A stretch of 22,576 nucleotides of DNA from a virus. The notes beneath the pieces are model-generated. The model saw only the letters and a program-made list of their open reading frames with translations. It made no database searches and was not told where the DNA came from. Where the stretch lies: positions 1 to 22,576 of IMG/VR virus record IMGVR_UViG_3300036859_000090. The stretch is one strand, 5' to 3'. Each line of letters begins with the position of its first letter. The first letter of the stretch is position 1. This document shows positions 1,333 through 18,488 of the stretch, in pieces. A program made the position numbers and the translations under genes.

Positions 1333-1390
1333 CGCGGGCTTAGATTTTTCCTCGCGCGTCGTCGGGTAACAGCAGGGCGCGCGATGTAAG

Positions 1391-1536
1391 GCCAGAACTG
1401 TGGGATAGCCCTGAAATACTGGTGAGCGGCGGCGAAGGCAGCACCGCTCGGGCGAAAAGGCTGCCGGGTGTAAGGCTCCGCACGGCGAAGGCTTACTGAA
1501 GGCACCTAGGATGGTCTAGGTGCGACAACCGCTGGC
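1391..1536 (+). ncRNA. structured non-coding stretch after the HNH gene
   Basis: The 207 bases between the HNH stop and the next gene hold no supported CDS but contain several helices: GAGCGG/CCGCTC (1424-1429/1444-1449), GTAAG/CTTAC (1470-1474/1492-1496) and a perfect 8-bp hairpin GCACCTAG/CTAGGTGC (1502-1509/1516-1523). GCCAG (1391-1395) can close the whole on CTGGC (1532-1536). The motif GGCGAA recurs four times. This could be a mobile-gene-associated RNA, a leader of the next gene, or chance structure in GC-rich DNA. I see no group I intron core. Confidence 0.28.
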
Positions 1537-2716: not shown

Positions 2717-2995
2717 ATGAATTACAGGGCGGGTGATGAGGTAATTTGCATTGACGCAAGGCCCATTAAGGGCGGCAGATTCACTTTATTGAAGGTAGGC
2801 AAGTGCTACAAAGCAGTCGGCTTCTCTAGGTGTTGCAGCCAATTGGTGGGAGAAGATTTCCCGGGGGTGAACGAGTGCCCCCTATGCCGCGCCACTGACC
2901 AGAGCAATGCGTTCTATGCTTGGCGCTTCATAAAGCTCGACGGACTTAAAGAAGAGATAGTAACGGACCGCACACTGGTAACCACTTCACAATGA
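2717..2995 (+). CDS. Cys-containing hypothetical phage protein
   Basis: 92 residues. The ATG at 2717 is preferred over the upstream TTG at 2693 because AGGAGG and GGGG lie just upstream and the conserved-looking body starts here (YRAGDEVICID...). The middle holds CC...ECPLC, so one metal site built from Cys residues is plausible. Proteins beginning with a GDEVICID-type strand followed by Cys pairs are common small phage proteins of unknown role. It ends in an ATGA overlap with ninB. Confidence 0.65.
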   Translation: MNYRAGDEVICIDARPIKGGRFTLLKVGKCYKAVGFSRCCSQLVGEDFPGVNECPLCRATDQSNAFYAWRFIKLDGLKEEIVTDRTLVTTSQ

Positions 2996-3387
2996 GGCGC
3001 ATCATCCTCGCCAAGCAATCCCGCCCCTTTGCCCACCAATGCATCAACGAAGCCCCAGACGGCTGGTGTCTGACCATTGCGGAGCCTACCCGCAACCTGG
3101 ATCAGAACGCGCTCTTACACGCAGTCCTATCCGACATAGCCGAGCAACTGGAATGGGCCGGGAAGAAGCGAGATATTGAGACATGGAAACGGCTGCTGGT
3201 GGCTGCCTGGATGCGCGCCACGGGGCGCAATGTGACTTTGCTACCTGCCATAGACGGGCAGGGCTTCGATGCGCTGTACGCCCGCACAAGCAAGTTGAGC
3301 AAGGCTGAGTGCGCGGAATTGATCGATTACGTGACTGCGTGGGCTGTTGATAACGAAGTTATCCTGAAGATAATGGAGGCGGCGTGA
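2992..3387 (+). CDS. ninB: NinB-like recombination protein
   Basis: 131 residues, the usual length. The family signature is clear: TRNLDQNALLHAVLSDIAEQ, WAGKKRDIETWKRLLVAAW, then the ending DGQGFDALYARTSKLSKAEC and ELIDYVTAWA. NinB (Orf) of lambda binds single-stranded DNA and acts in phage recombination, replacing host RecFOR functions. It sits among middle DNA-metabolism genes, coupled on both sides by 4-base overlaps. The assignment is secure; the symbol follows the lambda family. Confidence 0.9.
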   Translation: MRRIILAKQSRPFAHQCINEAPDGWCLTIAEPTRNLDQNALLHAVLSDIAEQLEWAGKKRDIETWKRLLVAAWMRATGRNVTLLPAIDGQGFDALYARTSKLSKAECAELIDYVTAWAVDNEVILKIMEAA

Positions 3388-4425: not shown

Positions 4426-4490
4426 GAATGCTGAACCCGCTTCGCAATGACTACGACGAGCTGGATTACTGGGACTGGGCTTGGACATGA
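4422..4490 (+). CDS. 22-residue acidic aromatic peptide
   Basis: GTG 4422 (or ATG 4428) to TGA 4490. The product is Asp/Tyr/Trp-rich (DYDELDYWDWAW). It overlaps both neighbours by 4 bases, which is why it is listed. It may be only a translational bridge. Confidence 0.3.
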   Translation: MRMLNPLRNDYDELDYWDWAWT

Positions 4491-4702
4491 TGAACTATTG
4501 CAAGGACTGCAAGTTTAGCCAGCTGAATCATGACCCGCGCAGCGGCGTGATTTATGAGTGCGTGAGGTATGCAGGCTCCCATGAAAGTCCAGTGTTCGGG
4601 ATAAGCATTATCCCTGTGGATTGCGTTGCGGCCCGGGCAGAGACTGGTTCTTGTCGTCCGGCTGGACTCGGGTATGTTCCGCGCAGAAGGTGGTGGCGAT
4701 AG
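4487..4702 (+). CDS. Cys-rich zinc-ribbon-like small protein
   Basis: 71 residues from ATG 4487 (ATGATG, overlapping the previous stop). It begins MMNYCKDCKF and continues with YECVR, PVFG, VDCVAARAETGSCRP. The spacing of C5, C8, C28 and later Cys residues is that of a small metal-binding knuckle; related phage proteins end in a GxC-P-G-x-x-Y/F motif, here SCRPAGLGY. Zinc binding is inferred and the role is unknown. Confidence 0.65.
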   Translation: MMNYCKDCKFSQLNHDPRSGVIYECVRYAGSHESPVFGISIIPVDCVAARAETGSCRPAGLGYVPRRRWWR

Positions 4703-5034
4703 ATACGCCGGCCCTTGATGACCGTCTCGAATGGCACCTGCTCAATTGGCGGGACTGGATGCGTTCTGGTGAGCATGTAGCCAAATACCCTCATACCGCT
4801 GCCGGCTGTGTGGGAGGAGGGTATACCGGCGACTTTGACGACATGGTAGCGGCTGCTGATAGGCGTTGCGCCGCAATCATGGACGCCCTGATCGGAGACC
4901 TTACGCCCGGTCAGCAATGTGCGATTCACCATGTTTACTTGCGGTCTGTGTGGAGGTTCAGGGACTTGGATTCGGTGTTAGAACGCGCCAAAAGCGAGCT
5001 GAGGTTGGGGATGGCTAAGAGGGGGCTGCACTAG
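4690..5034 (+). CDS. candidate late-gene antiterminator/regulator (Q-like)
   Basis: 114 residues from GTG 4690 (GTG 4693 is equally possible; an upstream TTG at 4621 would overlap the previous gene deeply). The pattern LNWRDWMRSGEHVAKYPHT near the start, a Gly-rich loop, then DLTPGQQCAIHHVYL and a C-terminal ERAKSELRLGMAKRGLH resembles small phage proteins annotated as late regulators or antitermination Q-type. That resemblance is by pattern only. The context is stronger: a TTGACA promoter begins 17 bases after the stop and is followed within 100 bases by a terminator, as in lambda Q-pR'-tR'. A DNA-binding regulator unrelated to Q is the main alternative. Confidence 0.5.
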   Translation: MVAIDTPALDDRLEWHLLNWRDWMRSGEHVAKYPHTAAGCVGGGYTGDFDDMVAAADRRCAAIMDALIGDLTPGQQCAIHHVYLRSVWRFRDLDSVLERAKSELRLGMAKRGLH

Positions 5035-5051
5035 ATATGGTGCGAAAGCCC

Positions 5052-5080
5052 TTGACAACCACAAGGAATTGTGGTCGAAT
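5052..5080 (+). promoter_or_regulatory. sigma70-type promoter
   Basis: A perfect -35 TTGACA (5052-5057) and a 4/6 -10 TCGAAT (5075-5080) are separated by exactly 17 bases. Transcription would begin near 5086-5088 and run into the terminator at 5121-5148. The weak -10 with a perfect -35 suggests regulated strength. Confidence 0.55.
5058..5075. promoter_or_regulatory. palindromic operator in the promoter spacer
   Basis: ACCACAA and TTGTGGT are perfect 7-bp inverted arms separated by GGAA, filling the space between -35 and -10. A dimeric regulator bound here would block or remodel polymerase. Two degenerate copies (ACCACAA-N4-TAGTGTC) lie at 6585 and 6636. Confidence 0.55.
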
Positions 5081-5085
5081 GCAGG

Positions 5086-5148
5086 GGTTCGTCGGCGTTC
5101 TGCACCCTAAAGAAACGTAAAGCTCAGGCATTTGCCCTGGGCTTTTTT
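5086..5148 (+). ncRNA. short leader RNA between late promoter and terminator
   Basis: The predicted transcript from the 5052 promoter is about 60 nt before the first terminator. It contains no clear ORF with a ribosome-binding site. By position it corresponds to the lambda 6S-type leader made from pR' when no antiterminator acts. Ends are estimates from the promoter spacing and the T-run. Confidence 0.4.
5121..5148 (+). terminator. intrinsic terminator, first of a related pair
   Basis: AGCTCAGG (5121-5128) pairs with CCTGGGCT (5136-5143), 8 bp with one G-U, followed by six T. It is preceded by AGAAACGTAA (5111-5120) and followed by CATTTG; both flanks recur at the second terminator. Confidence 0.8.
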
Positions 5149-5177: not shown

Positions 5178-5315
5178 ATGACTCCCTTTATGGAAGGATG
5201 CCTTTGGATTGTGTTTGTTTGCGGACTCATCGCCGCCGCTGCAGCGCTCGCCCCGCAGAAACGTAAGCCCTGGAGATTGATCCGGGGCTTTTTCATTTGC
5301 CTGCTGCCGGACTGA
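5178..5315 (+). CDS. small membrane peptide spanning the second terminator
   Basis: 45 residues. A hydrophobic helix at about 8-25 (CLWIVFVCGLIAAAAALA) is followed by a positive cluster (PQKRKPWR) and a second hydrophobic stretch (GFFICLL), which looks like a real membrane topology signal. AAGGAG at 5160-5165 lies 12 bases before ATG 5178, longer than ideal; an alternative frame from ATG 5168 (32 residues, Cys/Arg-rich) is too close to it. The reading frame runs through the terminator hairpin at 5265-5293, so part of the C-terminus may be fortuitous. Confidence 0.35.
   Translation: MTPFMEGCLWIVFVCGLIAAAAALAPQKRKPWRLIRGFFICLLPD
5265..5293 (+). terminator. intrinsic terminator, second of the pair
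   Basis: AAGCCCTGGA (5265-5274) pairs with TCCGGGGCTT (5281-5290), 10 bp with one T-G, loop of 6, then T-run to 5293. It has the same flanks as the first: AGAAACGTAA at 5257-5266 and TTTTTCATTTG at 5289-5299. Confidence 0.75.
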
Positions 5316-5523: not shown

Positions 5524-5661
5524 ATGAAAGGCAAAGGACATTCCGCAACACAGCCTAAATCCGGCTGGTACAAAGGCGGGACAGCTACAACGCCTGGCAA
5601 GGCAAGCTACAGCAAGCCAAAGCCCACAACCGCTCACAGGCCCTCGGGACGTGGTAAATGA
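5524..5661 (+). CDS. small basic, Gly/Ser/Thr-rich protein
   Basis: 45 residues starting MKGKGHSATQPKSGWYKGG and continuing low-complexity with Lys, Pro, Thr and Ser. AAAGGAAA lies 6-8 bases before ATG 5524. It is probably disordered and nucleic-acid binding by charge. The stop overlaps the next ATG. No family is recognised. Confidence 0.5.
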   Translation: MKGKGHSATQPKSGWYKGGTATTPGKASYSKPKPTTAHRPSGRGK

Positions 5662-6659: not shown

Positions 6660-7550
6660 ATGCGAGTAATCCTCGGTAAAGGGTTTATCGGGTCTGCTTT
6701 ACAAAAGCGGCTGAACTGCCGGATCGTCAGTCACCAGGAGGCCGACCTTACAAAGCCCTTGGACGCGCTTTCGGCTGTTTCTGGTGCAGAAGTCGTTTAC
6801 CTCTGTGCCGGCAAGACTGGGGGTGTGGGAAGGATGTCTTCCGACCCCATGTCGTTCGTCTACCCGAACGTCAGGATCCACATGGGCGTTTTCGAAGCCT
6901 GCGTAAAAGCCGGGGTTAAAAGGGTGGTCTGTGTCGGGTCTACCACCGGCTACCCGGACTCCGGGGATGCCATGACCGAGGACCGCTATCTGGAAGGCGA
7001 TTTACATCCGGCTTACTTCGTTCCAGGAAACGCCCATCGCTTCATCAAAAGACTGGCGATGATGCACAAAGACCTTGAAACGGTGTTTTTCCGGCCTTCT
7101 AACGTCTACGGGCCTGGAAACAACTTCGATCCTCAAAACTCCCACGTCATCGAGGCAACCATAAGGAAGGTTGCTGAAAGACAGAATCCCTTTGTGATCT
7201 GGGGAACCGGGAATGAGGTCCGGGACGCGATCTATATCGACGACCTCGCGGAAGCCATGACCTACGGCGAGACCTGTGCTCCGGGAGACTACAACGTCGG
7301 GTCCGGGGAAGAGATGTCTGTAAATCATATTGCCGCCAGCCTGCGTCAATATGTCAATTTGCTTGGCGAAGATGCCGGGGTTAAATACAACCCGGATATT
7401 ATCCACGACCTCTCCAAACCCACCGCTATTCCGGCCCGCAGGGTCAACTGCGACAAGTTAAAGTCTCTTGGTTGGAGGCCAAGGGTCTCAATGAAAGAGG
7501 GTTTACGAAAGACCTACGATTGGTATACAGAGCACAAAGGAGCGATATGA
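6660..7550 (+). CDS. GDP-fucose-synthase-like SDR with altered active site
   Basis: 296 residues, extended short-chain dehydrogenase/reductase. The NAD(P) loop is GKGFIGSAL (6-14). CAGKTGGVG (49-57), SNVYGPGNNFDPQNSHVI (147-164), VIWGTGNEVRDAIYIDDLA and the C-terminal LGWRP...LRKTYDWY follow GDP-L-fucose synthase (WcaG/Fcl) closely. In that family the catalytic set is Ser, Cys, Tyr-x-x-x-Lys and His. Here Ser94, Lys130 and His162 are kept, but Cys is replaced (Thr96) and the Tyr position is His126 (codon CAT in HRFIK). It is therefore either a different reaction on a nucleotide sugar or a degenerate enzyme. ATG 6660 has no strong ribosome-binding site. It is the first gene of the island and is coupled to the next by ATGA. 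Confidence 0.85.
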   Translation: MRVILGKGFIGSALQKRLNCRIVSHQEADLTKPLDALSAVSGAEVVYLCAGKTGGVGRMSSDPMSFVYPNVRIHMGVFEACVKAGVKRVVCVGSTTGYPDSGDAMTEDRYLEGDLHPAYFVPGNAHRFIKRLAMMHKDLETVFFRPSNVYGPGNNFDPQNSHVIEATIRKVAERQNPFVIWGTGNEVRDAIYIDDLAEAMTYGETCAPGDYNVGSGEEMSVNHIAASLRQYVNLLGEDAGVKYNPDIIHDLSKPTAIPARRVNCDKLKSLGWRPRVSMKEGLRKTYDWYTEHKGAI

Positions 7551-7825
7551 CAGCAAAGACGATGGAAGACATTTTCACGTTGCGGTTTCTGGCGTCCGAG
7601 GATCACAACGACCCCAAGGACCCATCACATTGGAAAGGATTTCGCTACGGCCTGAAGACGGCCTGGGCTATTGTCTATAAGGCCAATGTGGATAGGCGTC
7701 TTTTAAACGAGTTAGAGGCATTCTCGGAGTGGTCCAAGCGCAGACAACGCGAAAGCGCGGCCTTCATTCTCAAGCAGGCCAAGGTCAAGAGGTTGTCCAA
7801 GAAGGCGAACAAAAAACGCACGTGA
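7547..7825 (+). CDS. small hypothetical protein of the sugar island
   Basis: 92 residues from ATG 7547, with AAGGAG 5 bases upstream and an ATGA overlap with the SDR gene; a longer upstream frame only shadows that gene. It is Trp/Lys-rich (SHWKGFRYGLKTAWAIVYK), with a strongly basic C-terminal tail (KVKRLSKKANKKRT). No enzyme motif is seen. Placement between two sugar-enzyme genes suggests an accessory role, but none can be named. Confidence 0.65.
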   Translation: MTAKTMEDIFTLRFLASEDHNDPKDPSHWKGFRYGLKTAWAIVYKANVDRRLLNELEAFSEWSKRRQRESAAFILKQAKVKRLSKKANKKRT

Positions 7826-8334
7826 TTTCCGACGCAATCCTCGCCCGCCTAGCTTTAGAAGTCGATACCGTCTTCGGTGTTTATGGAGGCGCTATAGCAG
7901 AGCTGTGGGACGCCTTTACCAGACAGGACAAGCTCAAATATGTCTGCCCCATGCACGAACAGGCCGCTTCTTTCATGGCCGAAGGTTACGCGAAGGTACG
8001 CGGTTTTGGCGTTGCAATGGCAACAAGTGGCCCAGGGGGCCTTAATATGGTCACCGGCATTGGAAACTGTTTCTACGATTCCTGTCCTATGCTTTTCATT
8101 ACGGGACAGGTGCAAACAAGATTTATCAAGCCCAGCCCTGAAATAAGGCAGCTGGGTTTTCAGGAAACGGACATCGTTTCCATTGTAAAACCTATTACGA
8201 AGTACGCCGTAACAGTATTGCGCCCCGAGCAGGCCCTCCCGATGTTGGACATGGCGATCTACCTGGCGAAAGCCGGTAGGCCGGGGCCTGTTCTATTAGA
8301 CCTCCCTGTCGATGTACAACGAGCTGATTGCTGA
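7822..8334 (+). CDS. ThDP-dependent enzyme, PYR-domain subunit (acetolactate-synthase-like)
   Basis: 170 residues from GTG 7822 (GTGA overlap). It is a complete N-terminal pyrimidine-binding domain: VDTVFGVYGG, the catalytic-Glu motif MHEQAASFMAEGYAK (Glu46), ATSGPGGLNMVTGIGNCFYD and the domain end RPGPVLLDLPVDVQ. In acetolactate synthase and YerE-type enzymes this Glu activates thiamine diphosphate of the neighbouring chain. The protein stops where the linker to the middle domain should begin, and the next gene supplies the rest from a 23-base overlap in another frame. Candidate role: decarboxylating pyruvate (or a similar 2-keto acid) and attaching the carbon unit to a keto-sugar. The substrate is inferred only from context. 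Confidence 0.85.
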   Translation: MISDAILARLALEVDTVFGVYGGAIAELWDAFTRQDKLKYVCPMHEQAASFMAEGYAKVRGFGVAMATSGPGGLNMVTGIGNCFYDSCPMLFITGQVQTRFIKPSPEIRQLGFQETDIVSIVKPITKYAVTVLRPEQALPMLDMAIYLAKAGRPGPVLLDLPVDVQRADC

Positions 8335-9463
8335 TCTGAAGCAGGCAAAAAAGCCTGTCTTGCTGATCGGGGGAGGGGTTCATAAATACCGGGAAGAGTT
8401 CAAAGCCTTAACCGAAGTCCTAAGGATACCCGCCTATGCGACCTGGAATGCCCTCGATATTGTCACGTCTGATCTTGAGACTTACGCGGGCGTGGTCGGC
8501 ACTTATGGCGGACCCGGACGAAACTTCGGAATTCAAAGCGCTGATCTCCTCATCTCCATCGGGTCCCGTATCTCCGGACGTATCACTGGCGGAATTCCGG
8601 AGAATTTCGCGCCTCTTGCGAAAAAGTGGCTCATTGAGATCGACCCGGGACTACTCGGACAATTTCAACCAGTCAAGTTCGACAGGAATATCGAGTCTGA
8701 CGCCGGAGAGTTCATGTCTGGACTCACTCGGAAACTTGGAGGAGAGAAACTAGATTTTGAGGCGTGGTTGAAAAGGTGCAAAGACTGGGCCGTAAAATAC
8801 GACCCCGTGAAGGCGGAATACTTCAAGAGCTTCCATCATTACGGCTTCGTGCGGAAATTATCAGAAAGGCTCCCCGCAAACGCGGTCCTCGTTTCCGACA
8901 CGGGCGGTAACGTGATCATGATGGGCCACTGCTTCAAGTCGAAGTGGGGGCAAAGGCTTTTCACCTCCAATGGCAATACCGCGATGGGCTTCGCCTTTTG
9001 TGGGGCCTTGGGAGCGTGGTTCGCGAATCCCGAAAGACCCGTAATCTGTCTTATAGGAGACGGGGGGTTCAACATGAACATCCAAGAGATTCAAACCATG
9101 TTGAACTACGGGTGTAATGTTAAAACCTTCATCCTAAACAACCATTGCTACGGCAACACAAAACTTTACCAAAAGTCCAACTACGGATCGAGATTCCTGG
9201 CTTGTGGGCCGGATGGGTACAACCCGCCGAACTTTGAAGCCATTGCTAGGGGCTATAACGTTCCCGTTGTTGACAGGATTGACTGCTACTGCAATCTCGA
9301 AGAAAAGATTGACGATCTCATTAAGCACCCGTTCCCGGCGATCATAGACGTTGTACATCACGATTTCTACGACTACTACCCGAGAATTTCGAGGTTTGAC
9401 CAGGAACTTCACGACCAGGACCCTCTGCTACCAAGAGGGGAGATTGAGGAGAATATGAGATGA
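8312..9463 (+). CDS. ThDP-dependent enzyme, middle and PP-domain subunit
   Basis: 383 residues. Residues 1-150 are the central Rossmann-like domain (KPVLLIGGGVH, GTYGGPGRNFGIQSADLLISIGSR), which binds FAD in acetolactate-synthase relatives. Residues 175-365 are the pyrophosphate domain with the ThDP/Mg motif GDG (249-251) and NN (276-277), plus FTSNGNTAMGFAFCGALGAW. Together with the upstream gene this equals one normal enzyme of about 550 residues, cut exactly at the linker. ATG 8312 lies within the upstream gene with no Shine-Dalgarno, so coupled translation is likely. No key residue is missing. It could also be a frameshifted single gene, but each piece has clean domain borders. Confidence 0.88.
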   Translation: MYNELIADLKQAKKPVLLIGGGVHKYREEFKALTEVLRIPAYATWNALDIVTSDLETYAGVVGTYGGPGRNFGIQSADLLISIGSRISGRITGGIPENFAPLAKKWLIEIDPGLLGQFQPVKFDRNIESDAGEFMSGLTRKLGGEKLDFEAWLKRCKDWAVKYDPVKAEYFKSFHHYGFVRKLSERLPANAVLVSDTGGNVIMMGHCFKSKWGQRLFTSNGNTAMGFAFCGALGAWFANPERPVICLIGDGGFNMNIQEIQTMLNYGCNVKTFILNNHCYGNTKLYQKSNYGSRFLACGPDGYNPPNFEAIARGYNVPVVDRIDCYCNLEEKIDDLIKHPFPAIIDVVHHDFYDYYPRISRFDQELHDQDPLLPRGEIEENMR

Positions 9464-9624
9464 AGGATTGGATCGAGTTTTTTGTAGTCATCTTGCTTGC
9501 GGCGCTTATTTTGACAGCCCCTATGCTTTATATGAGAGATGCCGCCATGCCGCCACAGTTTTTTATGCTACCTATTGCTTGGTGTGGCGTGATGTACCTG
9601 ATTTGGGATTGGGACATATTCTGA
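9460..9624 (+). CDS. small two-helix membrane protein in the sugar island
   Basis: 54 residues from the ATGA overlap at 9460. Residues 6-24 (EFFVVILLAALILTAPMLY) and about 32-49 (QFFMLPIAWCGVMYLIW) are hydrophobic, joined by MRDAAMPP; the C-terminus is WDWDIF. It is probably an inner-membrane hairpin. Its frame is separate from the apparent N-terminal extension of the next SDR gene, showing that this extension is not coding. Possible roles include anchoring glycan enzymes or helping a lipid-linked sugar step; neither is shown. Confidence 0.6.
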   Translation: MKDWIEFFVVILLAALILTAPMLYMRDAAMPPQFFMLPIAWCGVMYLIWDWDIF

Positions 9625-10526
9625 GAATATTAGTCACCGGGGGAGCTGGCTATATCGGCTCCGTCCTCGTACCGAAACTGCTTGAGAAGCACGAAGTCAC
9701 CGTCCTCGATAATTTCATCTACAGGCAGAATTCTCTAGCTCAACTCTGTAAGCAAAAGAACTTCGATGTTTACAAAGTCGATTGTAGAGACTCGCTTTCT
9801 GTAAAGCCCTTCCTGAGAAGGGCTGACGTAATAATCCCGCTGGCTGCTTTGGTGGGGGTTCCGCTCTGTAATCTGAACCCGATAGACGCGGCTTTATTGA
9901 ACCTTCATGCCCCGCTGGAGATGTTCAAGAACCTCTCCCAAGAGCAGCTTGTAATCATGCCGACGACTGAAAGTTCCTACGGGAGCAATGCGGACGTTTG
10001 CACCGAGGAAACACCGGCAAACCCGCTCTCGACTTACGCAGAACACAAGCTGGAGGTCGAAAACGCCCTTCTTCAGAGAGACAAGAGCATAAGCCTGCGG
10101 TTAGCCACTGTTTTCGGCATGAGTCCGAGAATGAGGCTCGATCTGCTGATCAACGATTTCGTCTGGAGGGCGCAGAAAGACCGCGCCTTCGTGCTGTTTG
10201 AAGCGCGGTATAGGCGGACCTGTGTCCATGTAACCGATGTTGCAAGAGCTTTCCTGCACGCCTTGGAGAAGAACCTCAGGGGCATTTACAACGTCGGGGC
10301 TGTGACGTTAACCAAGCAAAGCCTCTGCGAGGCGATAAACAATCATTCGAAATTCACCTTCATAGAGGCGGATTTCGATAAAGACCCGGATCAAAGAGAC
10401 TACATCGTTTCCGACGATAAGATCAGGAAAACCGGATTCCAGCCGATGGTTGACTTGGATACGGGCATTAAAGAGCTTCTGAAGGGCTTCCGGATGCTTT
10501 CCAACTCGGTGCATGGCAACGTCTAA
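9621..10526 (+). CDS. NAD-dependent nucleotide-sugar epimerase/dehydratase (extended SDR)
   Basis: About 301 residues. GGAGYIG (7-13) is the classical GxxGxxG loop, LDNF (29-32) the ribose-binding end, PLAALVG the substrate loop, and STYAEHK carries the catalytic Tyr139 and Lys143 with Thr/Ser at 115-119. RLATVFGMSPRMR and YNVG follow the UDP-glucose 4-epimerase/dTDP-glucose dehydratase pattern. Unlike the first SDR of the island, all catalytic residues are present. The start is unusual: homology begins at CTG 9621, which overlaps the TGA of the membrane gene (CTGA). TTG 9609 would add only four residues and is the conventional alternative; the ATG at 9468 would add a non-homologous 51-residue leader. 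Confidence 0.85.
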   Translation: MRILVTGGAGYIGSVLVPKLLEKHEVTVLDNFIYRQNSLAQLCKQKNFDVYKVDCRDSLSVKPFLRRADVIIPLAALVGVPLCNLNPIDAALLNLHAPLEMFKNLSQEQLVIMPTTESSYGSNADVCTEETPANPLSTYAEHKLEVENALLQRDKSISLRLATVFGMSPRMRLDLLINDFVWRAQKDRAFVLFEARYRRTCVHVTDVARAFLHALEKNLRGIYNVGAVTLTKQSLCEAINNHSKFTFIEADFDKDPDQRDYIVSDDKIRKTGFQPMVDLDTGIKELLKGFRMLSNSVHGNV

Positions 10527-11502
10527 CCTCCAAGCCCTGGAACTGGTAATAGACCGCTCCGAAGGGGGCGGCAAGGTTTCCCGGGAGCTGATGAAGAAGA
10601 AGCTTCGCAAGGCTCAGCGCGAAGGCCGGTTCATGGAGATACCCAAAGACCCGGAGTGGCGTTTCAGGATCTGTTCTGCAAACCTGATGCTGGGAAATTA
10701 CAACTGGGACGGCTGGGAATTCAGGGACCCGTGGGCTACGATGCTCTGGTTAAACCCAACGGCTTTACAAAAGCCCCGGTGGGAAGGGCAGAAGGGCCGA
10801 GTCTTGATTCTTGGAGAGCAGGGTTTAGGGGATGAAATAATGTTCGCCTCCTGCATTCCGGAGATTCAGAAGACCAACGAGATCGGAATTACCTGCATTC
10901 CAAGACTGAAATCCATCTTCGAGCGAAATTTCGGATGCCCTGTTTATGACAGAAACGAAGGCAAAGAACTCACCAGAGCAAGAGAACTCCTCGAAGACTA
11001 CGACTACTACATCGGCTTTGGAGACTTACCACGACTGCTTAGACGCAGCCGCGCTGATTTCCCTGGAACGCCATTCCTCATTCCGGACAGAAATCTGGAA
11101 TCCCAAATGGAAATGTATCGTGGAAAAGTCGGAATCTCATGGAGAGGGCGCAATGGATTCTATCCCCTCAAAGACTTCCCGCCTGGGATAAGTCTCCAAT
11201 ACGACTTGGCCTGGGATGAAGATCCGGAGCTACCCCATATCGACGTTAGAAACGATATGGAAGGGCTTTTGGCTCTGGTATCGGTGCTTGAAAAGGTGGT
11301 TTGCGTTTCGACGACCGTAACGCACTTTGCCGGCGCTTTGGGTAAGAAGGTGGAAGTGATTTTGGCCCCGATTCAAACGGCGAGATCGAAGAATCAAATG
11401 AACTGGCGGCATGGTTTGAATAGACCCACAAGCGACTGGTACAAGTCTGCTTTGATTTACCGGAACCTTGATGAGTGGAGGCGACACCATCGGATTCGGT
11501 GA
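10513..11502 (+). CDS. glycosyltransferase, GT9/heptosyltransferase fold
   Basis: 329 residues. After a basic helical N-terminus (1-60), GEQGLGDEIMFASCIPEI (101-118) is the nucleotide-sugar-fold entry of TPR-linked/GT9-type enzymes. VGISWRG opens the second Rossmann domain, and VVCVSTTVTHFAGALGKKVEVILAP near the end is the donor-binding segment of this GT-B group. It probably transfers a sugar to a lipid-linked or surface glycan on the cytoplasmic side. ATG 10513 overlaps the previous gene by 14 bases. Donor and acceptor cannot be read from the sequence. Confidence 0.78.
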   Translation: MATSNLQALELVIDRSEGGGKVSRELMKKKLRKAQREGRFMEIPKDPEWRFRICSANLMLGNYNWDGWEFRDPWATMLWLNPTALQKPRWEGQKGRVLILGEQGLGDEIMFASCIPEIQKTNEIGITCIPRLKSIFERNFGCPVYDRNEGKELTRARELLEDYDYYIGFGDLPRLLRRSRADFPGTPFLIPDRNLESQMEMYRGKVGISWRGRNGFYPLKDFPPGISLQYDLAWDEDPELPHIDVRNDMEGLLALVSVLEKVVCVSTTVTHFAGALGKKVEVILAPIQTARSKNQMNWRHGLNRPTSDWYKSALIYRNLDEWRRHHRIR

Positions 11503-12220
11503 CGATTTCATTGTCACTTCCATCGTAAAGAAGGCCTACGCAAAACATAACAAGCCGATCTGCGTAGGCGACGGAAGAGATATCAAGTGGGAAGAGGTTT
11601 TCGACAATAACCCAAAACTGTCGAAAGCTGTCTATCCGGGCGCGGTGTGGGTGAACAATATCATGTTCAACAGACCCTACATCGACAACCTCAAAACAAC
11701 GCCTGAGAGGGTTGTTTATAACCCGAGCTTCAAAGCCGAACCAGGGGAAATTTTCCTTACTGATGCCGAGAGAGACCGATTCAAAGACTCCGGATTCATC
11801 TACATCGAACCCAACGTCAAGGGTTCATTTGGTGGTAATAAAGACTGGGGCTTCGACAAATGGCAGGAAGTTGTCAAACGTCTACCCTATCGATTCGTAC
11901 AGGGGAAAGGCAGGAAGCTCGACGGCGTTGAACAGATTCAAACTGGTAGTTTCAGAGAAGCCTGCGCTCTCCTGGAGAGATCAGACTTTTTCGTCGGGAC
12001 GGACGGGGGCCTACATCATGCCGCCGCAGCCCTTGGAAAGCGGGCGGTGGTTGTTTGGGGTGGACTGGTTTCCCCCAAGATCCTGGGTTATGACGCCCAT
12101 ATCAACCTACATTCAGGAACCCATTCCTGCGGCTCGCCAAAAGCCTGTGCTCACTGCCGTAAAGCCCTAGATTGGGTCACTGTAGACATGGTGAAAGATG
12201 CTATCCGTTCTCTTGCCTAG
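11471..12220 (+). CDS. second GT9-like glycosyltransferase
   Basis: 249 residues from ATG 11471 (a TTG one codon earlier is possible). GFGDDFIVTSIV near the start corresponds to the G-x-GD loop, and SDFFVGTDGGLHHAAAALGK followed by RAVVVWGG (171-198) is the heptosyltransferase-type C-terminal motif. It is shorter than usual GT9 enzymes (about 320-350). It ends with a Cys cluster (HSCGSPKACAHC) that could bind metal. It overlaps the preceding transferase by 32 bases; the two are probably different paralogues acting in sequence. Confidence 0.72.
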   Translation: MSGGDTIGFGDDFIVTSIVKKAYAKHNKPICVGDGRDIKWEEVFDNNPKLSKAVYPGAVWVNNIMFNRPYIDNLKTTPERVVYNPSFKAEPGEIFLTDAERDRFKDSGFIYIEPNVKGSFGGNKDWGFDKWQEVVKRLPYRFVQGKGRKLDGVEQIQTGSFREACALLERSDFFVGTDGGLHHAAAALGKRAVVVWGGLVSPKILGYDAHINLHSGTHSCGSPKACAHCRKALDWVTVDMVKDAIRSLA

Positions 12221-12818
12221 TCGTGGAAGGCCGGAGATGTGTTACCTGGCTGTGGAATCTGCGCGCAACACAGCTAAGGGCGACATCGAGATTCTTGTCT
12301 ATCTGGACGAGGACGATCCGAGTACATATTGGGTTGGTGGTAATGTCATCAGGGGCAAGCCAAGGCGCTCGGGCGAGGCCATTCGCCACCTCTACTCCTT
12401 AGCTAAGGGCGATCTATTCTACTTCGGCTCCGACGACATCACCTGGGAAACAGAAGGCTGGGATCTAATCTTCAAGGAGAAGATGTCAACGCATGGACTT
12501 GCTGTTCTCTACCCTGACATGGGGGATTCGTGTAATCCCTGCTTCACAAGAAAGTGGGTCGAAACGGTAGGACTGTTCCCTGATTACTTCAAGCATTTCG
12601 GCCCTGATACGTGGTACGCGGACATCGCTAAGAGAGCAGGAACTTTGATCAACGTCCCAGAAGTCAGGATGACGCACCAAAGAGTAAGGGACGAGACCTA
12701 TACAAGAACGCGGGCGGACGGAGATGGAATGTTCGCCCAGAGAATGCTCGACGAAACCAAAGAAGAGAGACAACGATTAGCCGAGAAAGTAAAGACGCTC
12801 TTATCCTCCGAATCCTGA
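12198..12818 (+). CDS. GT-A-type glycosyltransferase (GT2-like)
   Basis: 206 residues. It starts LSVLLPSRGRPEMCYLAVES, typical of GT2-like enzymes; VYLDEDD and FYFGSDD (74-80) give acidic clusters where the metal-binding DxD lies. The C-terminal half (NPCFTRKWVETVGLFPDYF, then GPDTWYADIAKRAG) matches the acceptor half of such small phage/bacterial transferases. ATG 12198 lies inside the previous gene. It probably makes one glycosidic bond of the island's glycan. Confidence 0.75.
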   Translation: MLSVLLPSRGRPEMCYLAVESARNTAKGDIEILVYLDEDDPSTYWVGGNVIRGKPRRSGEAIRHLYSLAKGDLFYFGSDDITWETEGWDLIFKEKMSTHGLAVLYPDMGDSCNPCFTRKWVETVGLFPDYFKHFGPDTWYADIAKRAGTLINVPEVRMTHQRVRDETYTRTRADGDGMFAQRMLDETKEERQRLAEKVKTLLSSES

Positions 12819-13471
12819 AGGGGATAGAGGAGGCAAGACCGCTTCCAGGAAGGGATAAATGGGAAGCCTGCTGGCGAGAGCACGAAGATCTCATCCCCCC
12901 GTATTATCACTCTGACATCATTCGAGAGTATGGGGAATTCAAGTATGTCCCCAATGGGTATGAGTATTCCAGGTTTTGCGGGATCAGAGACAGGCTTTTG
13001 CATGAATACTGTGAAGATATGCCTGTTTACGAATTCGGTTGCGGAACCGGACATAACCTCACCGGATTGATGAATTGCAAGGGCTTTGATTGGTCCGGAA
13101 GCGCTGTAAGGAAACTCAGAGACCGCGGAATCGATGCGGATGTCTTTGATATGCTGAACCCGACGCCAATGGAAATACCCGGCGCCGCAGTTACATTCCA
13201 TGCGCTTGAACAATTGGGAAAGAACTTCCGGCCTTTCCTTGACTTTCTCTTGGAAGCAAGGCCTAAAGTCGTGGTTCACGTCGAACCGATTTTAGAGCTG
13301 TACGAAGACAACCTTCTCGATTACCTCGCTGTGCAATACCACAAGAAACGAGGCTATCTGGAAGGCTATCTTGAGGCGGTCATAAACTCAGGTGCTGAGA
13401 TTTTAGAGCTGAAGCGAAATCACTTCGGCTCTCTTTACCATGATGCCTATTCGGTGCTGGTATGGCGATAG
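12815..13471 (+). CDS. SAM-dependent class I methyltransferase, probable CTG start
   Basis: 218 residues if started at CTG 12815, which overlaps the previous TGA (CTGA). Motif I is VYEFGCGTGHNL (71-82). FDWSGSAVRKL and DVFDMLNP give the acidic residues that contact SAM; VTFHALEQLG is the motif IV/post-IV region and HFGSLYHDAYSVLVW the C-terminal strands. In this frame no ATG, GTG or TTG occurs between an in-frame stop near 12631 and TTG 12998. Using TTG 12998 would cut the protein just before motif I and discard a plausible N-terminal cap. The likely role is methylating a sugar of the glycan; a small-molecule or protein target is not excluded. Confidence 0.75.
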   Translation: MKGIEEARPLPGRDKWEACWREHEDLIPPYYHSDIIREYGEFKYVPNGYEYSRFCGIRDRLLHEYCEDMPVYEFGCGTGHNLTGLMNCKGFDWSGSAVRKLRDRGIDADVFDMLNPTPMEIPGAAVTFHALEQLGKNFRPFLDFLLEARPKVVVHVEPILELYEDNLLDYLAVQYHKKRGYLEGYLEAVINSGAEILELKRNHFGSLYHDAYSVLVWR

Positions 13472-14232
13472 CGGTCTACGGCTGTGCAACCCCGATCAGG
13501 ATGCACGTAGCAAGAGCGATGGCTACTTACCTCAAGTGCCCTTTGTACGAGGAAGGAAAGCCTTCCTACAGGGGCGGGGATTCGATTGTCTGGGGGTTGA
13601 TAAGGGGTTCTCCCGCAGTAATAGAAGCCACCAAAGCCGCCGGCTGCAATTACTACCAGCTAGACAATGGTTATTTTGGCCGGAATTCATATTACCGTTT
13701 TACAAAGAACGCCTTTCAACAAACAACTTTGAAAGAGCGGAAGCCGGATCGGTGGGAGCATATCAAAAAGCATCACAGCCTTGAATTGAAGCCCTGGAAG
13801 AAAGACGGTTCCAAAGTCCTGTTCTGTCTCTCCACGGAACACCTGTACCGCTTTCTGGGTCTGGATATCGCGGTCTACCGAACCAAGACCCTAAGACGGC
13901 TGAAGGAAGTCACGCAAAGAGAGATCGTGGTCAGGGAGAAAGACGCGGTAGGCCCTATAGAGGACGCCCTTAAGGATGCGTGGTGCGTGGTAACGCATAC
14001 CTCCGCAGTCGCTTTGGATGCGCTGAGGTTCGGGGTTCCGGTGTTTACTACGGGCTTGAATGCCGCAGACCCCTGTGCTTTGAAAGACGTGACTTACTTG
14101 GATACCCCGATTTACCCGGAAAGAGAACCCCTGTTCTGGAGCCTTGCATACAGTCAATGGCTCCCAGAGGAGATGCAATTAGGACGAGCTTGGAATGAAT
14201 GCTTAGAATCTTCCTCGGCTACGACCGTTTAG
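13462..14232 (+). CDS. GT-B-like glycosyltransferase (capsule-type)
   Basis: 256 residues. VYGCATPIRMHVARAM opens an N-terminal Rossmann-like domain, and CNYYQLDNGYFGRNSYYRFT is a segment I associate with phage-encoded capsule-type transferases. The C-terminal AWCVVTHTSAVALDALRFGV (171-190) followed by PVFTTG resembles the donor-site segment of Kdo/capsule transferases (TH/S-S-x-A-x-E/D-A-L-x-x-G-x-P). It overlaps both neighbours (10 and 34 bases). The assignment is by motif only. Confidence 0.6.
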   Translation: MAIAVYGCATPIRMHVARAMATYLKCPLYEEGKPSYRGGDSIVWGLIRGSPAVIEATKAAGCNYYQLDNGYFGRNSYYRFTKNAFQQTTLKERKPDRWEHIKKHHSLELKPWKKDGSKVLFCLSTEHLYRFLGLDIAVYRTKTLRRLKEVTQREIVVREKDAVGPIEDALKDAWCVVTHTSAVALDALRFGVPVFTTGLNAADPCALKDVTYLDTPIYPEREPLFWSLAYSQWLPEEMQLGRAWNECLESSSATTV

Positions 14233-14879
14233 AACCCGTCGTACATCATGTCTGTGCCCATAGCATCTTAAGACGAAGTTCGATACCCGTCAGCATCATC
14301 CCGCTAAACCGCGATTGCCTTCGCGGTTTTTTTTCGCGAAGCCGAGGCCCTTACGACTCGACGGACTTTGCGATAACGAGATTTCTGGTCCCGTTCATTT
14401 GCGAGTTTCAGGGTTTCTCTGTCTTCATGGACGGAGACATGGTTTGCCTGGGAGACGTAGCCGAACTCTCGGGCTATATGACTTTGATGGACCGTTATAA
14501 CTACGCAGTGAGGGTAGTAAAGCATGACTACACGCCGCCCGAAGAGACCAAGTTTCTCGGACAAATCCAGACCAAGTACGAAAAGAAAAACTGGTCTTCC
14601 GTCATGGTCTTCAATAACGCTTTGTGTACGAAACTTACTCCAGACTATGTGGAGAAAGCTCCGGGGTTAGAACTGCACCAATTCAGATGGTGCAAGAAAG
14701 AACAAGTAGCGGACATGCCCAAGGCATGGAATTACCTGGTGGGAGTTTATCCGAAAACAGAGAACGTGAAACTTCTCCACTACACCAAGGGGACACCTTG
14801 TTTCCCTGATTACAAGGACTGCGATTACGCCCAGGTCTGGCATGACGAATACAAGGACATGGTGAATTTTGGACATTGA
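14199..14879 (+). CDS. GT-A glycosyltransferase (GT8-like), last gene of the sugar island
   Basis: 226 residues. IFLGYDRLEPVVHHVCAHSI is the family start. STDFAITRFLVPFI precedes VFMDGDMVCLGDVAEL with the metal-binding D-G-D (78-80). AVRVVKHDYTPP, KFLGQIQTKYEKKNWSSVMV and PKAWNYLVGVYP, then LLHYTKGTPCFPDY, complete a well-conserved pattern. Reaction: transfer from a nucleotide sugar, retaining mechanism if truly GT8. Its end overlaps the terminase start by 11 bases, so island and packaging genes share one transcript. The coding sequence contains a terminator-shaped hairpin (14306-14334). Confidence 0.85.
   Translation: MLRIFLGYDRLEPVVHHVCAHSILRRSSIPVSIIPLNRDCLRGFFSRSRGPYDSTDFAITRFLVPFICEFQGFSVFMDGDMVCLGDVAELSGYMTLMDRYNYAVRVVKHDYTPPEETKFLGQIQTKYEKKNWSSVMVFNNALCTKLTPDYVEKAPGLELHQFRWCKKEQVADMPKAWNYLVGVYPKTENVKLLHYTKGTPCFPDYKDCDYAQVWHDEYKDMVNFGH
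14306..14334 (+). terminator. strong intrinsic terminator shape inside the GT8-like gene
   Basis: AAACCGCGA (14306-14314) pairs perfectly with TCGCGGTTT (14321-14329), loop TTGCCT, and the T-run reaches 14334 (eight T in a row). It lies about 110 bases into the coding sequence. It may attenuate transcription before the terminase gene, or be overridden by antitermination. Confidence 0.6.
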
Positions 14880-16332
14880 GCGCGAGATTGTAAAAGCGCT
14901 TGAAGAGCTTGAACACATCAATGCGATAAACAGACTTTCCAAGTATGACCCCTATCCCTACCAAAGCAACTTCCACAACGCGATAGGGTTTGACACCGAA
15001 ATACCTGCGAAACAGCGCTTCCTGATGGCTGCCAACGGGGTAGGAAAGACCATCTGCGGCGGGATGGAAGCGGCCATGCATTTAACGGGGATTTACCCGG
15101 ACTGGTTCAAAGGGACCCGTTTTCATTATCCGGTTGAAATGGTTGTTGGAGCTAAAACAAACGACGCCGCGGTAAAAGTCGTTCAGAAGATCCTGTTCGG
15201 CGATGCGATGGACAAGCAGAGTCTTGGGACAGGATGCATCCCCAAGAAATACCTGAACACGAATTTCAAGATGAAGCCCGGCATTCCGGGGGCCATTGGT
15301 GAGGCGATGGTGAAGCACATCACCGGGCGATGGTCGAAAGTCGCGGTGATGTCCTATGACCAGAAACCCAAAGCCTTCATGGGAATTCGGTTCGACGTGG
15401 GCTGGCTGGACGAAGAACCGCCTTCGGATATTTGGTCGCAGTTCATCCGAGGCACGTTATCGAGGATCAACGCGATTCTCTACATAACAGCAACCCCGGA
15501 AGAGGGAATGACTCCTACGGTCATTCAGTTTTCCAACGACCTTAAAAAAGGGCAAGCCCTTATACAAGCGACCTGGGCCGATGCGCCCCATTTGAGCGAC
15601 GAAGAGAAAGAACAGCGCCTCGCTGCTTTTCCTGAACACGAACGGGACATGCGCTCTAAAGGCATTCCGATGTTCGGGCAAGGACTTATTTTCCCGTTCC
15701 CTGATGAGCAGCTTCTAGTAGACCCGATTCAGATTCCGGACTACTGGCCGCAGATCGTGGGAATCGACTTCGGTGGCGGAAGATCAAAGGGAGGACACCC
15801 GTTCGCCGCTGCAAACCTCGCGTGGGACAGGGACTCGGATACGGTGTATCTGACCTCTGAATACAGGGTTAAGGCACAAATCCCCACACAACATGCGGAC
15901 ACGATCAAGAAATGGGGTAGTTGGAAACCCGTCGCCTGGCCGCATGACGGCTTGAATACAGAGAAGGGTACGGGAGATCAGTTGAGGGAATCCTACTCGA
16001 ATGCTGGCTTAAACATGCTTCGGGAGAAAGCCACGAATCCCCCTGACTATGCACAAGGACAGGAAGAAGGTCAGGGCGGCATTTCGAGGGAAAAGTCTTT
16101 ACTCGATCTTTACGACAGGATGGAAAACGGCAAATTCAAGGTATTCAGAACTTGCCCAATTTTTGCCGAGGAGAAACGCATGTACCACCGTGACGAACAT
16201 GGAAAGGTCGTTGATCTCATGGATGACGTAATAAGCGCAACTCGTTACGCCCATATGATGCTGCGGCATAGTTCGACCAAGACCTTGAAGCTCAAGAAGC
16301 CTCAAATGGCTGTCGGCATCCGGAACTGGTGA
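14869..16332 (+). CDS. terminase large subunit
   Basis: 487 residues from TTG 14869, with GGTGA 5 bases upstream; the start lies inside the GT8-like gene. The ATPase half has Walker A AANGVGKT (54-61), Walker B FDVGWLDEE (175-183) and ITATPEEG as coupling motif. The RNase H-like nuclease half has IVGIDFGGG (Asp300), WPHDG (Asp360) and VVDLMDDVISATRYA (Asp452/453). It is the motor that pumps DNA into the prohead through the portal and cuts the concatemer. Length and motif set are complete. It is coupled to the portal gene by a GTGA/ATG junction. Confidence 0.95.
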   Translation: MDIEREIVKALEELEHINAINRLSKYDPYPYQSNFHNAIGFDTEIPAKQRFLMAANGVGKTICGGMEAAMHLTGIYPDWFKGTRFHYPVEMVVGAKTNDAAVKVVQKILFGDAMDKQSLGTGCIPKKYLNTNFKMKPGIPGAIGEAMVKHITGRWSKVAVMSYDQKPKAFMGIRFDVGWLDEEPPSDIWSQFIRGTLSRINAILYITATPEEGMTPTVIQFSNDLKKGQALIQATWADAPHLSDEEKEQRLAAFPEHERDMRSKGIPMFGQGLIFPFPDEQLLVDPIQIPDYWPQIVGIDFGGGRSKGGHPFAAANLAWDRDSDTVYLTSEYRVKAQIPTQHADTIKKWGSWKPVAWPHDGLNTEKGTGDQLRESYSNAGLNMLREKATNPPDYAQGQEEGQGGISREKSLLDLYDRMENGKFKVFRTCPIFAEEKRMYHRDEHGKVVDLMDDVISATRYAHMMLRHSSTKTLKLKKPQMAVGIRNW

Positions 16333-18488
16333 TGGAATACAAAGAGCCGAAGACCAGGAAGATTCGGCAAAAGGACTGGGAGAACGTCAGCCGCTTCATC
16401 AAGAAGGAACTCGACCACAGACGAGACTCTCAATACCGGAAAGACCACGAAACGATCTGGAAAGAGGTTGACCGGCAACTGAAGATGCAGCCGATGAAGC
16501 GCATGACCTCTGAAGGACGAGAGATTCCCCCTTCATGGAATTCCGCCTTTGAGCTGGGGGAGCTTTCCAAAGCCTCTGAAATCATCTCTGCGGACGTGAT
16601 GAGGATCACATTCCCTCAAGAGCGGGACTGGTTCGAGGCCCACGTAGAAATTCCGCAGACGGTAGATGAAAACGGCCAGGAGGCAATAGACGAAGAAACC
16701 CAGATCAGGGTTGACGGGCTTCTTAAAGCTTTAATGGCCCAGCAGCAGAACGACTTTGGTTTCCAGCTCTCGGTGGAGTCTTCTGTCAAAGAGGCTTTGC
16801 ATCACGGCTCTTACGTAGCTGAAGTCTTGTGGGATCAGGAGATGGAAGTGCAGGACGGGGCGAAGGTCAGGAAGATTGCCGCTCCTACATGGGTTCCGCA
16901 TTCGATGTGGAACTGCTATCCCGATATGTCTCCGAGAGTCATAGGAACCTCGATGTTCTATCGGGGTTCCATGATCATCGTGTCCTACATGCCTCTGTAT
17001 AAACTGAAGCAGAGGAAGGGCGAGGGCTGGATGCCCTCCCAGTTCGATAAGATTCCCAAGTCAAAACCGGGAAAGAGCGAGGAGCCTAAAAAGCGCGACG
17101 ACTCCGAAATGAAAGACGTGGAACTCGCCACGTATTACGGAGACATCGTAATCGAGAGAGGGGATGGAGATATCTATCTCCCCAATTCGAAAGCGATGAT
17201 TGCAAACGGCGTCATTGTTTACTGGGAGGCAAACGAGCTTCCCTATCCCTCTGTAATCTTCGGTGGGTATGAAAAGCAGGACATCCGGGACCCGTACTTC
17301 ACCAGCCCTTTAATCAAGCAGTCCCCGATACAGAAATTGTGTTCTGTATTGGCGAACAAGTTTGTTGATTCTGTTGCCCTTAATACCGAACCTCCTATCG
17401 TCTATGACGGGAACGATCCTTACATGGTGCAGAACGACGGCCCCATTATTGCTCCGGGGGTTAAAACACCATCCAAGGGCTCGAATGCTTTCCAGGAAGT
17501 GAAGATAGGAGAACCGTCCTGGGCGCTTCAAGGTCTTGAAATGGGCCTGAGGCAGATGCAGGCCGGTACGGGAGTTTCGGAAGTTAGAAGCGCCGTTCCT
17601 ACATCAGACAGGCAAACAGCTTTCGAGGTCAGCAAAGTTGCTCAAGCGGGAGAAGTCAGGACCGTTGACTTTATCAGAAAGCTCAACCGGAACCTCCAGA
17701 CCTGGCTCTACATGCAACACGCTTTGAACATCAAGTACCTCAAAGAATACTCGTTCTACAACGAGGACATGAGGTCCAAGGACTTCGTGAGAGTCACGGA
17801 TAAAGACCTGAAGCAATACGCAGAGACGGCTCACTTCGACGTGGTTGGAGCGAGAGGCGTGTTGGGTGAAGAGCAGCGCGCGGAGAAGATGGGGCTGGTA
17901 ACTGCTTTTGCTTCCCAGAATCCGCTCTTTGCGCCTCTGTTGAAGCCGCAAGATTTGCTTTTGGAAGCCTATAGAGACGCGGGGGTTAAGAATCCCGAAA
18001 GGTTCGTAAACCAGCAACAGGACATGGTTCCCGCCTCTCAGGTAGATCAAGCCGTTCAAGAAGCTACTGCCCCAATGCAGGAAGAAATGGCGAAGATGCA
18101 GGAAGCCCTTTCCAAAGCACAGATGGCCGAACAGGCCAAAGTCATTGACGCGCAGACCAAGCGCGAAGCGGAAGCTGTAAGGCTTCAGCAGGAAGAGAAG
18201 AAGATCATCCTGGCACACCAGGCCGAGATGGAAAGAATCCGCCTCGCTCATCAGGCCAAGCTGATCGAGATTCAGGCTAATGCTGCGGTTCAGGACAAGC
18301 AGGCCGAGATACAAGCCAAAGCCGCCGAGGGTGACAAGGACAAATCAGAGAAGTCGGAAAAGAGAACTGAAGACATCGCTAAAGCGATTGCAAACATGAA
18401 GCCGCCGATTGTGAACAACTACGTCGGTGGCGGTAAGAAGAAGATCAAATTTCCCGGCGGCAAGGAAGCGACGGTAGAGGAAGAGTAA
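16332..18488 (+). CDS. portal protein with coiled-coil C-terminus
   Basis: 718 residues from ATG 16332 (GTG 16329 is possible). The order terminase-portal-structural genes is diagnostic. Supporting segments include ELSKASEIISADVMRITFPQ near the N-terminus, VPHSMWNCYPDMSP, the central QKLCSVLANKFVDSVALNTE, and the stem/clip-like GTGVSEVRSAVPTSDRQTAF. From about residue 575 to 690 the protein is a long Gln/Glu/Lys/Ala-rich helix (MQEEMAKMQEALSKAQMAEQ onward), which would form a barrel or coiled coil inside the head, ending in a Gly/Lys-rich tail. The protein forms the dodecameric DNA entry ring. The long internal extension fits podovirus-like portals. Confidence 0.88.
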   Translation: MEYKEPKTRKIRQKDWENVSRFIKKELDHRRDSQYRKDHETIWKEVDRQLKMQPMKRMTSEGREIPPSWNSAFELGELSKASEIISADVMRITFPQERDWFEAHVEIPQTVDENGQEAIDEETQIRVDGLLKALMAQQQNDFGFQLSVESSVKEALHHGSYVAEVLWDQEMEVQDGAKVRKIAAPTWVPHSMWNCYPDMSPRVIGTSMFYRGSMIIVSYMPLYKLKQRKGEGWMPSQFDKIPKSKPGKSEEPKKRDDSEMKDVELATYYGDIVIERGDGDIYLPNSKAMIANGVIVYWEANELPYPSVIFGGYEKQDIRDPYFTSPLIKQSPIQKLCSVLANKFVDSVALNTEPPIVYDGNDPYMVQNDGPIIAPGVKTPSKGSNAFQEVKIGEPSWALQGLEMGLRQMQAGTGVSEVRSAVPTSDRQTAFEVSKVAQAGEVRTVDFIRKLNRNLQTWLYMQHALNIKYLKEYSFYNEDMRSKDFVRVTDKDLKQYAETAHFDVVGARGVLGEEQRAEKMGLVTAFASQNPLFAPLLKPQDLLLEAYRDAGVKNPERFVNQQQDMVPASQVDQAVQEATAPMQEEMAKMQEALSKAQMAEQAKVIDAQTKREAEAVRLQQEEKKIILAHQAEMERIRLAHQAKLIEIQANAAVQDKQAEIQAKAAEGDKDKSEKSEKRTEDIAKAIANMKPPIVNNYVGGGKKKIKFPGGKEATVEEE

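Follow-up and report, generated by a model that had tools for sequence, protein, structure and literature searches.

Does the short stretch of DNA behind a small regulator-like gene in an environmental phage act as a Q-type switch for the late genes, and if so, which of the known Q systems does it resemble? The window, by which we mean the whole stretch of 22,576 nt analysed, is an IMG/VR virus record of 22.6 kb in which every recognised gene lies on the + strand, and for which phage records gave no match by either megablast or distant blastn. The gene in question is separated from an upstream NinB gene by small ORFs and is followed on the same strand by packaging and head genes, including those of the terminase large subunit (TerL) and the portal (Table 1), so that it sits between nin/replication genes and late genes. 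An earlier note, made from the DNA letters alone, had placed the putative switch upstream of the structural genes, in agreement with our annotation; it had also called the layout non-lambdoid, which does not hold, since NinB, Q and late genes follow one another in a lambdoid-like order. The named phage MW202481 is likewise arranged as Cro, replication, NinB and Q.

Table 1. Positions of the putative switch and its neighbouring genes in the window
Feature	Coordinates	Strand	Basis
NinB gene	2992..3387	+	PF05772 (E 9.1e-37), phrog_72; upstream of Q-like gene
Putative Q-like antiterminator gene, 114 aa, GTG start	4690..5034	+	relatives, family-level PF06530 match, hhalign, VIA-align
-35 element TTGACA of predicted late (pR'-like) promoter	5052..5057	+	sequence; position conserved in relatives
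7-bp palindrome ACCACAA-GGAA-TTGTGGT filling the spacer	5058..5075	+	sequence
-10 element TCGAAT, weak, extended -10 TGn	5075..5080	+	sequence; comparison with L002
Predicted leader start and candidate 5' hairpin GGG...CCC	5085..5107	+	predicted start near 5087; pattern shared by relatives
Predicted intrinsic terminator (tR'-like)	5119..5148	+	hairpin 5119-5145, -12.5 kcal/mol; U tract to about 5148
Predicted second, tandem intrinsic terminator	5265..5295	+	hairpin and U tract at 5265-5290
First larger gene past the switch, 139 aa	5815..6234	+	counterpart in L002
Terminase large subunit gene	14869..16332	+	PF03237, PF17289
Portal / head-tail connector gene	16329..18488	+	phrog_332, phrog_1216

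Several neighbouring features deserve mention in their own right. The 139-aa protein has no Pfam match and no family, and position is the only hint that its gene could encode the terminase small subunit. A block of about 8 kb (6660-14879) with sugar-nucleotide epimerases, a thiamine-pyrophosphate enzyme and unassigned genes separates the late switch from the terminase and, given this location, would be expressed as late cargo. The thiamine-pyrophosphate enzyme (7810-9463) is encoded by two overlapping ORFs, the N domain reaching to 8334 and the middle and C domains starting from 8312, and the same split is found in the sister phage L002 (about 8040-9685), pointing either to two subunits or to a frameshift. 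In the gap that separates an HNH endonuclease gene from the early gene after it, the Rfam Betaproteobacteria-1 RNA (RF02932, 82 bits) is matched at 1351-1469 (+), which suggests that the phage carries such an RNA and that its host is a betaproteobacterium. A 20-residue ORF at 4428-4490 (MLNPLRNDYDELDYWDWAWT in the window), lying ahead of the Q-like gene or running into its start, is kept in L002 (about 4937-5002). Very small lysine-rich proteins are found among the first genes past the terminators in several relatives (L016, L030 and L062, some 100-400 nt after the Q stop); these begin MKKPTTKAGK..., and the version in the window (5524-5661) begins MKGKGHSATQ....

The closest relative of the 114-aa protein, 81% identical, is encoded by L002, one of the viral contigs, a single scan of which gave 246 matching stretches; a scan of genome contigs for prophage relatives gave none. 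Three further relatives with 31-34% identity occur in the named phage records MW202481, Venkman and EBPR podovirus 1 (gp41). The relative in MW202481 (34% identical) is annotated as 'phage antitermination protein Q' and that in Venkman as 'antitermination-like protein'; the labels of all three are annotation only, and we found no experiment on these proteins in the papers searched. Searched alone, the window protein gave no significant family match, and none at all to an antitermination family (PF06530 was without a hit at E<=1), and retrieved nothing relevant from the PDB by sequence; an MH1-domain match with E 0.017, below the cut-off, was set aside. At the family level, the profile matches are Phage_antitermQ PF06530 (best E 5.6e-4, 16 members), Sigma70_r4_2 (1.4e-3), phrog_79 'anti-termination protein Q-like' and phrog_248 'transcriptional activator'. 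The curated cut-off of PF06530 (26 bits) is reached neither by the window protein nor by any relative in the detailed tables, and therefore the 114-aa protein is not a Pfam member, only a distant relative. For profile-profile comparison, we used eight proteins that either carry the annotation antitermination protein Q or are homologues of such proteins (from ST64T, SE1, HK639 and Pm34, QuuD, and relatives); the one from ST64T is described as resembling Q of phage 21. A search of the viral contigs with QuuD gave only identical copies among the matches listed. Using hhalign, 67 columns of our family and the Q21-type proteins were brought into register with an E of 3.3e-4 and a probability of only 38%, and the raw score of 25.7 exceeds both the reversed control (13.0) and all 100 column-shuffled controls, the highest of which reached 18.9, indicating distant homology to PF06530. 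Furthermore, an L-x2-W-x2-W motif in helix 1 is invariant in both the 114-aa family and the Q21-type set.

The AlphaFold2 model of the protein (pLDDT 75) consists of a long helix, a short helix, a disordered loop and then a sigma-R4-like bundle with a helix-turn-helix, which corresponds to the Q21 fold, albeit with a modest Z-score and a pLDDT of 75. Foldseek alone ranked sigma region 4 first among PDB hits. A second look using VIA-align placed the Q21 entries 6p18, 6jnx, 6p1a and 6jny as the top four, with Z of 7.2-8.1 (values around 8 being modest for helical proteins) and matches covering 87-100 residues, nearly the whole model, followed by sigma region 4. Q21 itself has a sigma-R4-like fold, in which helix 2 and the loops shift so that a ring arises within the RNA exit channel (PMC6606751); by position, the disordered residues 30-45 of the 114-aa protein would belong to such a Q21-type ring. 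The earlier note had left room for a protein of an unrelated family; instead, the weak PF06530 match, the hhalign score above all controls and the leading position of Q21 in VIA-align favour a Q protein. Its comparison with lambda stands for the cassette, which is of the Q type, but not for the protein, which resembles Q21 (PF06530) and not lambda Q. The 114-aa protein is thus most likely a diverged Q21-like late antiterminator, antitermination itself being what we infer.

Directly behind the gene, the elements described by the earlier note, namely a TTGACA promoter within 20 bases, then some 60 nt of leader, then an intrinsic terminator, are indeed present. TTGACA begins 17 nt after the stop codon, and a 17-nt spacer separates it from TCGAAT, which matches the -10 consensus at 4/6 positions, the usual A being absent from position 2; a TG stands one base ahead of the -10 element. 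A consensus scan does not list the promoter because of this -10 element. Our own weight matrix gives it a score of 11.2 and the second rank among sites on the + strand, hence it is not exceptional in the window alone. The leader would run for about 60 nt from a predicted start near 5087 to the first terminator; the second terminator has a stronger hairpin than the first and lies inside a possible 45-aa ORF (5178), and L002 also has two tandem terminators. By contrast, further terminators within the late genes, likewise claimed by the earlier note, did not hold up: 25 terminator-like sites compare with 22.6 expected, which is not above chance, and terminators are not enriched inside the late genes. 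Our own terminator scan gave 10 sites on the + and 19 on the - strand. The sole textbook-looking intrinsic terminator among the late-gene sites, at 14306-14329 (AAACCGCGATTGCCTTCGCGGTTTTTTTTC), falls within the reading frame of ORF 14199-14879.

We therefore base the case for the cassette on the relatives, since its geometry is kept across them and the window alone is unremarkable. In the interval reaching from 12 nt ahead of the gene stop to 60 nt past it, we took the highest-scoring sigma-70-type promoter, counting scores of 10 or more, and we looked for a hairpin with U tract 25-140 nt beyond it. Among 33 non-redundant homologues, which are related by descent and so not fully independent, 22/33 have the promoter and 19/33 (58%) promoter and terminator, the latter 53-82 nt beyond the -10 element. 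The corresponding counts are 8/388 and 3/388 (0.8%) for control ORF ends on the same contigs, and 20/660 and 2/660 for dinucleotide shuffles, so the geometry is far above chance. A set of 25 promoters less than 85% alike shows that promoter sequences vary and terminator hairpins differ in sequence while the layout is kept; the leader sequence, too, is strongly divergent between relatives, and the geometry is constant. The cassette is present behind the gene in MW202481 and in EBPR podovirus 1, where the relative, promoter and terminator are directly ahead of TerS, TerL and portal. In L002, an additional small gene intervenes, and the cassette (TTGAAC-17-TCTAAT, with its terminator at +280) lies about 200 nt further downstream. 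The main exception, the marine Venkman-type clade (L004, L057, L076, L082 and relatives), has no promoter or cassette directly behind the gene, which another gene closely adjoins; its late promoter must lie elsewhere.

The spacer of the window promoter is filled by a perfect 7-bp palindrome, a candidate Q-binding element or repressor operator. The palindrome ACCACAA-N4-TTGTGGT directly behind TTGACA (TTGACAACCACAANNNNTTGTGG) recurs in four unrelated viral contigs (L306, L307, L308 and L309), compared with about 0.3 expected for 19 fixed bases by our own estimate, and no Q gene of the 114-aa family is found near it in these contigs; it looks like the operator of some regulator. A dimeric repressor bound to the spacer might then be the main control of this promoter, with the Q-like protein secondary or additional, an arrangement compatible with a Q21-like switch. 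We consider this rather unlikely as the main control, because the palindrome is absent from the sister phage and other relatives, and a repressor leaves the terminator and the linked gene unexplained. Among the 25 promoters, neither direct nor inverted repeats between -35 and -10 are clearly enriched or above shuffles, and a Q21-like direct-repeat binding site of the TGAGCA type is not detectable.

The protein could also be a conventional activator with a sigma-region-4-like fold, such as RinA and ArpU are thought to be, which raises initiation at the late promoter, the terminator ending the early transcript or insulating the late operon. The family matches to Sigma70_r4_2 and to the phrog_248 'transcriptional activator', together with the first PDB hits of Foldseek, agree with this, but the sigma-R4-like fold also belongs to Q21 itself (PMC6606751). 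What makes an activator quite unlikely is the cassette: a terminator 53-82 nt past the -10 element in many relatives would be needless for an activator and would block its own target, and many relatives have promoters near the consensus (TTGACA/TATAAT), which should therefore need no activator. That promoter, leader and terminator are a stand-alone small RNA gene or an attenuator, with late genes using other promoters and an unrelated neighbouring protein, is very improbable even though the transcription unit of about 60 nt is complete and the leader hairpin and CGTAA stretch are kept in relatives, given that the unit is tied to the 114-aa gene family and rare behind other genes, keeps its geometry while the leader sequence differs strongly, and has no Rfam match, and that lambda pR' also yields such a short RNA, which is not its main role.

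Considering the Q21 resemblance and the layout kept in most relatives, the Q21-like gene, promoter, leader and terminator very probably form a late-gene on-switch. The full reading, in which a diverged Q21-type antiterminator lets polymerase pass terminators into the late genes, has in our estimate a probability of about 0.8. Modelled on Q21 and lambda for loading, pausing, readthrough and late timing, the switch would work as follows. The early transcript that yields the 114-aa protein would include ninB as well. Polymerase starting at the promoter that adjoins the gene end would normally stop at the first terminator, and probably also at the second. Once enough protein has accumulated, it may bind the promoter spacer, load while the polymerase pauses early on, and cap the RNA exit channel; the polymerase so modified would pass both terminators into a co-directional block of about 17 kb with sugar-metabolism genes, terminase, portal and head genes.

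A variant of the loading step is conceivable though doubtful, in which loading or pausing is signalled not by a direct-repeat DNA site but by the 5' leader hairpin or the palindromic spacer. At the leader start, relatives have GGG(A)-N9-CCC followed by CGTAA in common, a pattern that is degenerate in the window. Over the family, the hairpin is more stable than shuffles (p 1.4e-5; p 0.07 for a control 200 nt downstream), but not in the window alone (p 0.70), and in a covariation check of the hairpin the count of double changes was reached by 25/500 shuffles. As candidates for a -10-like pause element in the first transcribed bases, GATAAT-like words occur at +12/+13 after the -10 element in several relatives, but against shuffles the combined p is 0.27, and the window has no clear case; Rfam has nothing at the leader. 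If such loading were true, the family would form a branch of Q proteins, distributed among environmental phages, that is recruited by a code of its own.

The mechanism is already established, and what we describe is a probable diverged switch of this kind in a little-described group of environmental phages; the value of the finding lies chiefly in the size of the family, in how little of it is annotated and in the anchored promoter set that accompanies it. It would extend Q21-type antitermination to a large, almost unannotated environmental phage family, of which no tested relative reaches the Pfam cut-off. The 25 anchored late promoters with their leaders allow one to ask how Q specificity and loading site co-evolve, and a practical rule for late promoters of metagenomic phages is to search right behind the Q-like gene.

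Among known systems, lambda Q/pR'/tR' has the same order of Q gene, late promoter, short leader, terminator and late genes, but its Q is of another protein family (PF03589) and its leader, about 194 nt, is far longer. Lambda Q and Q21 have only a helix-turn-helix in common (PMC6606751, PMC7171158). AlpA of Pseudomonas aeruginosa and GafZ of Caulobacter are antiterminators that load between -35 and -10 (the GafZ element being putative) and pass a downstream terminator (PMC9371919, PMC11150451); the likeness lies in an element between -35 and -10 and a terminator downstream, but they are not phage late switches, and we compared them by description. Compared with Q21 (PF06530), the aligned identity is only 13-14% with the family below the Pfam cut-off, the window protein is shorter (114 aa versus 162-172 for the Q21-type proteins compared), and the family has no detectable TGAGCA-type direct repeat. 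However, both have helix 1 with L-x2-W-x2-W, a short loop-helix and a sigma-R4-like C-terminal half, and in both the gene lies behind nin-type genes, with a promoter a few bases past the Q stop and a terminator within about 100 nt. The Q21-type phage SE1 shows a similar order of Q stop, TTGACA with a TGAGCA repeat, and a terminator about 90 nt on. Since the cassette is as compact as in Q21-type phages and the lambda leader is longer, phage 21 is a closer model than lambda.
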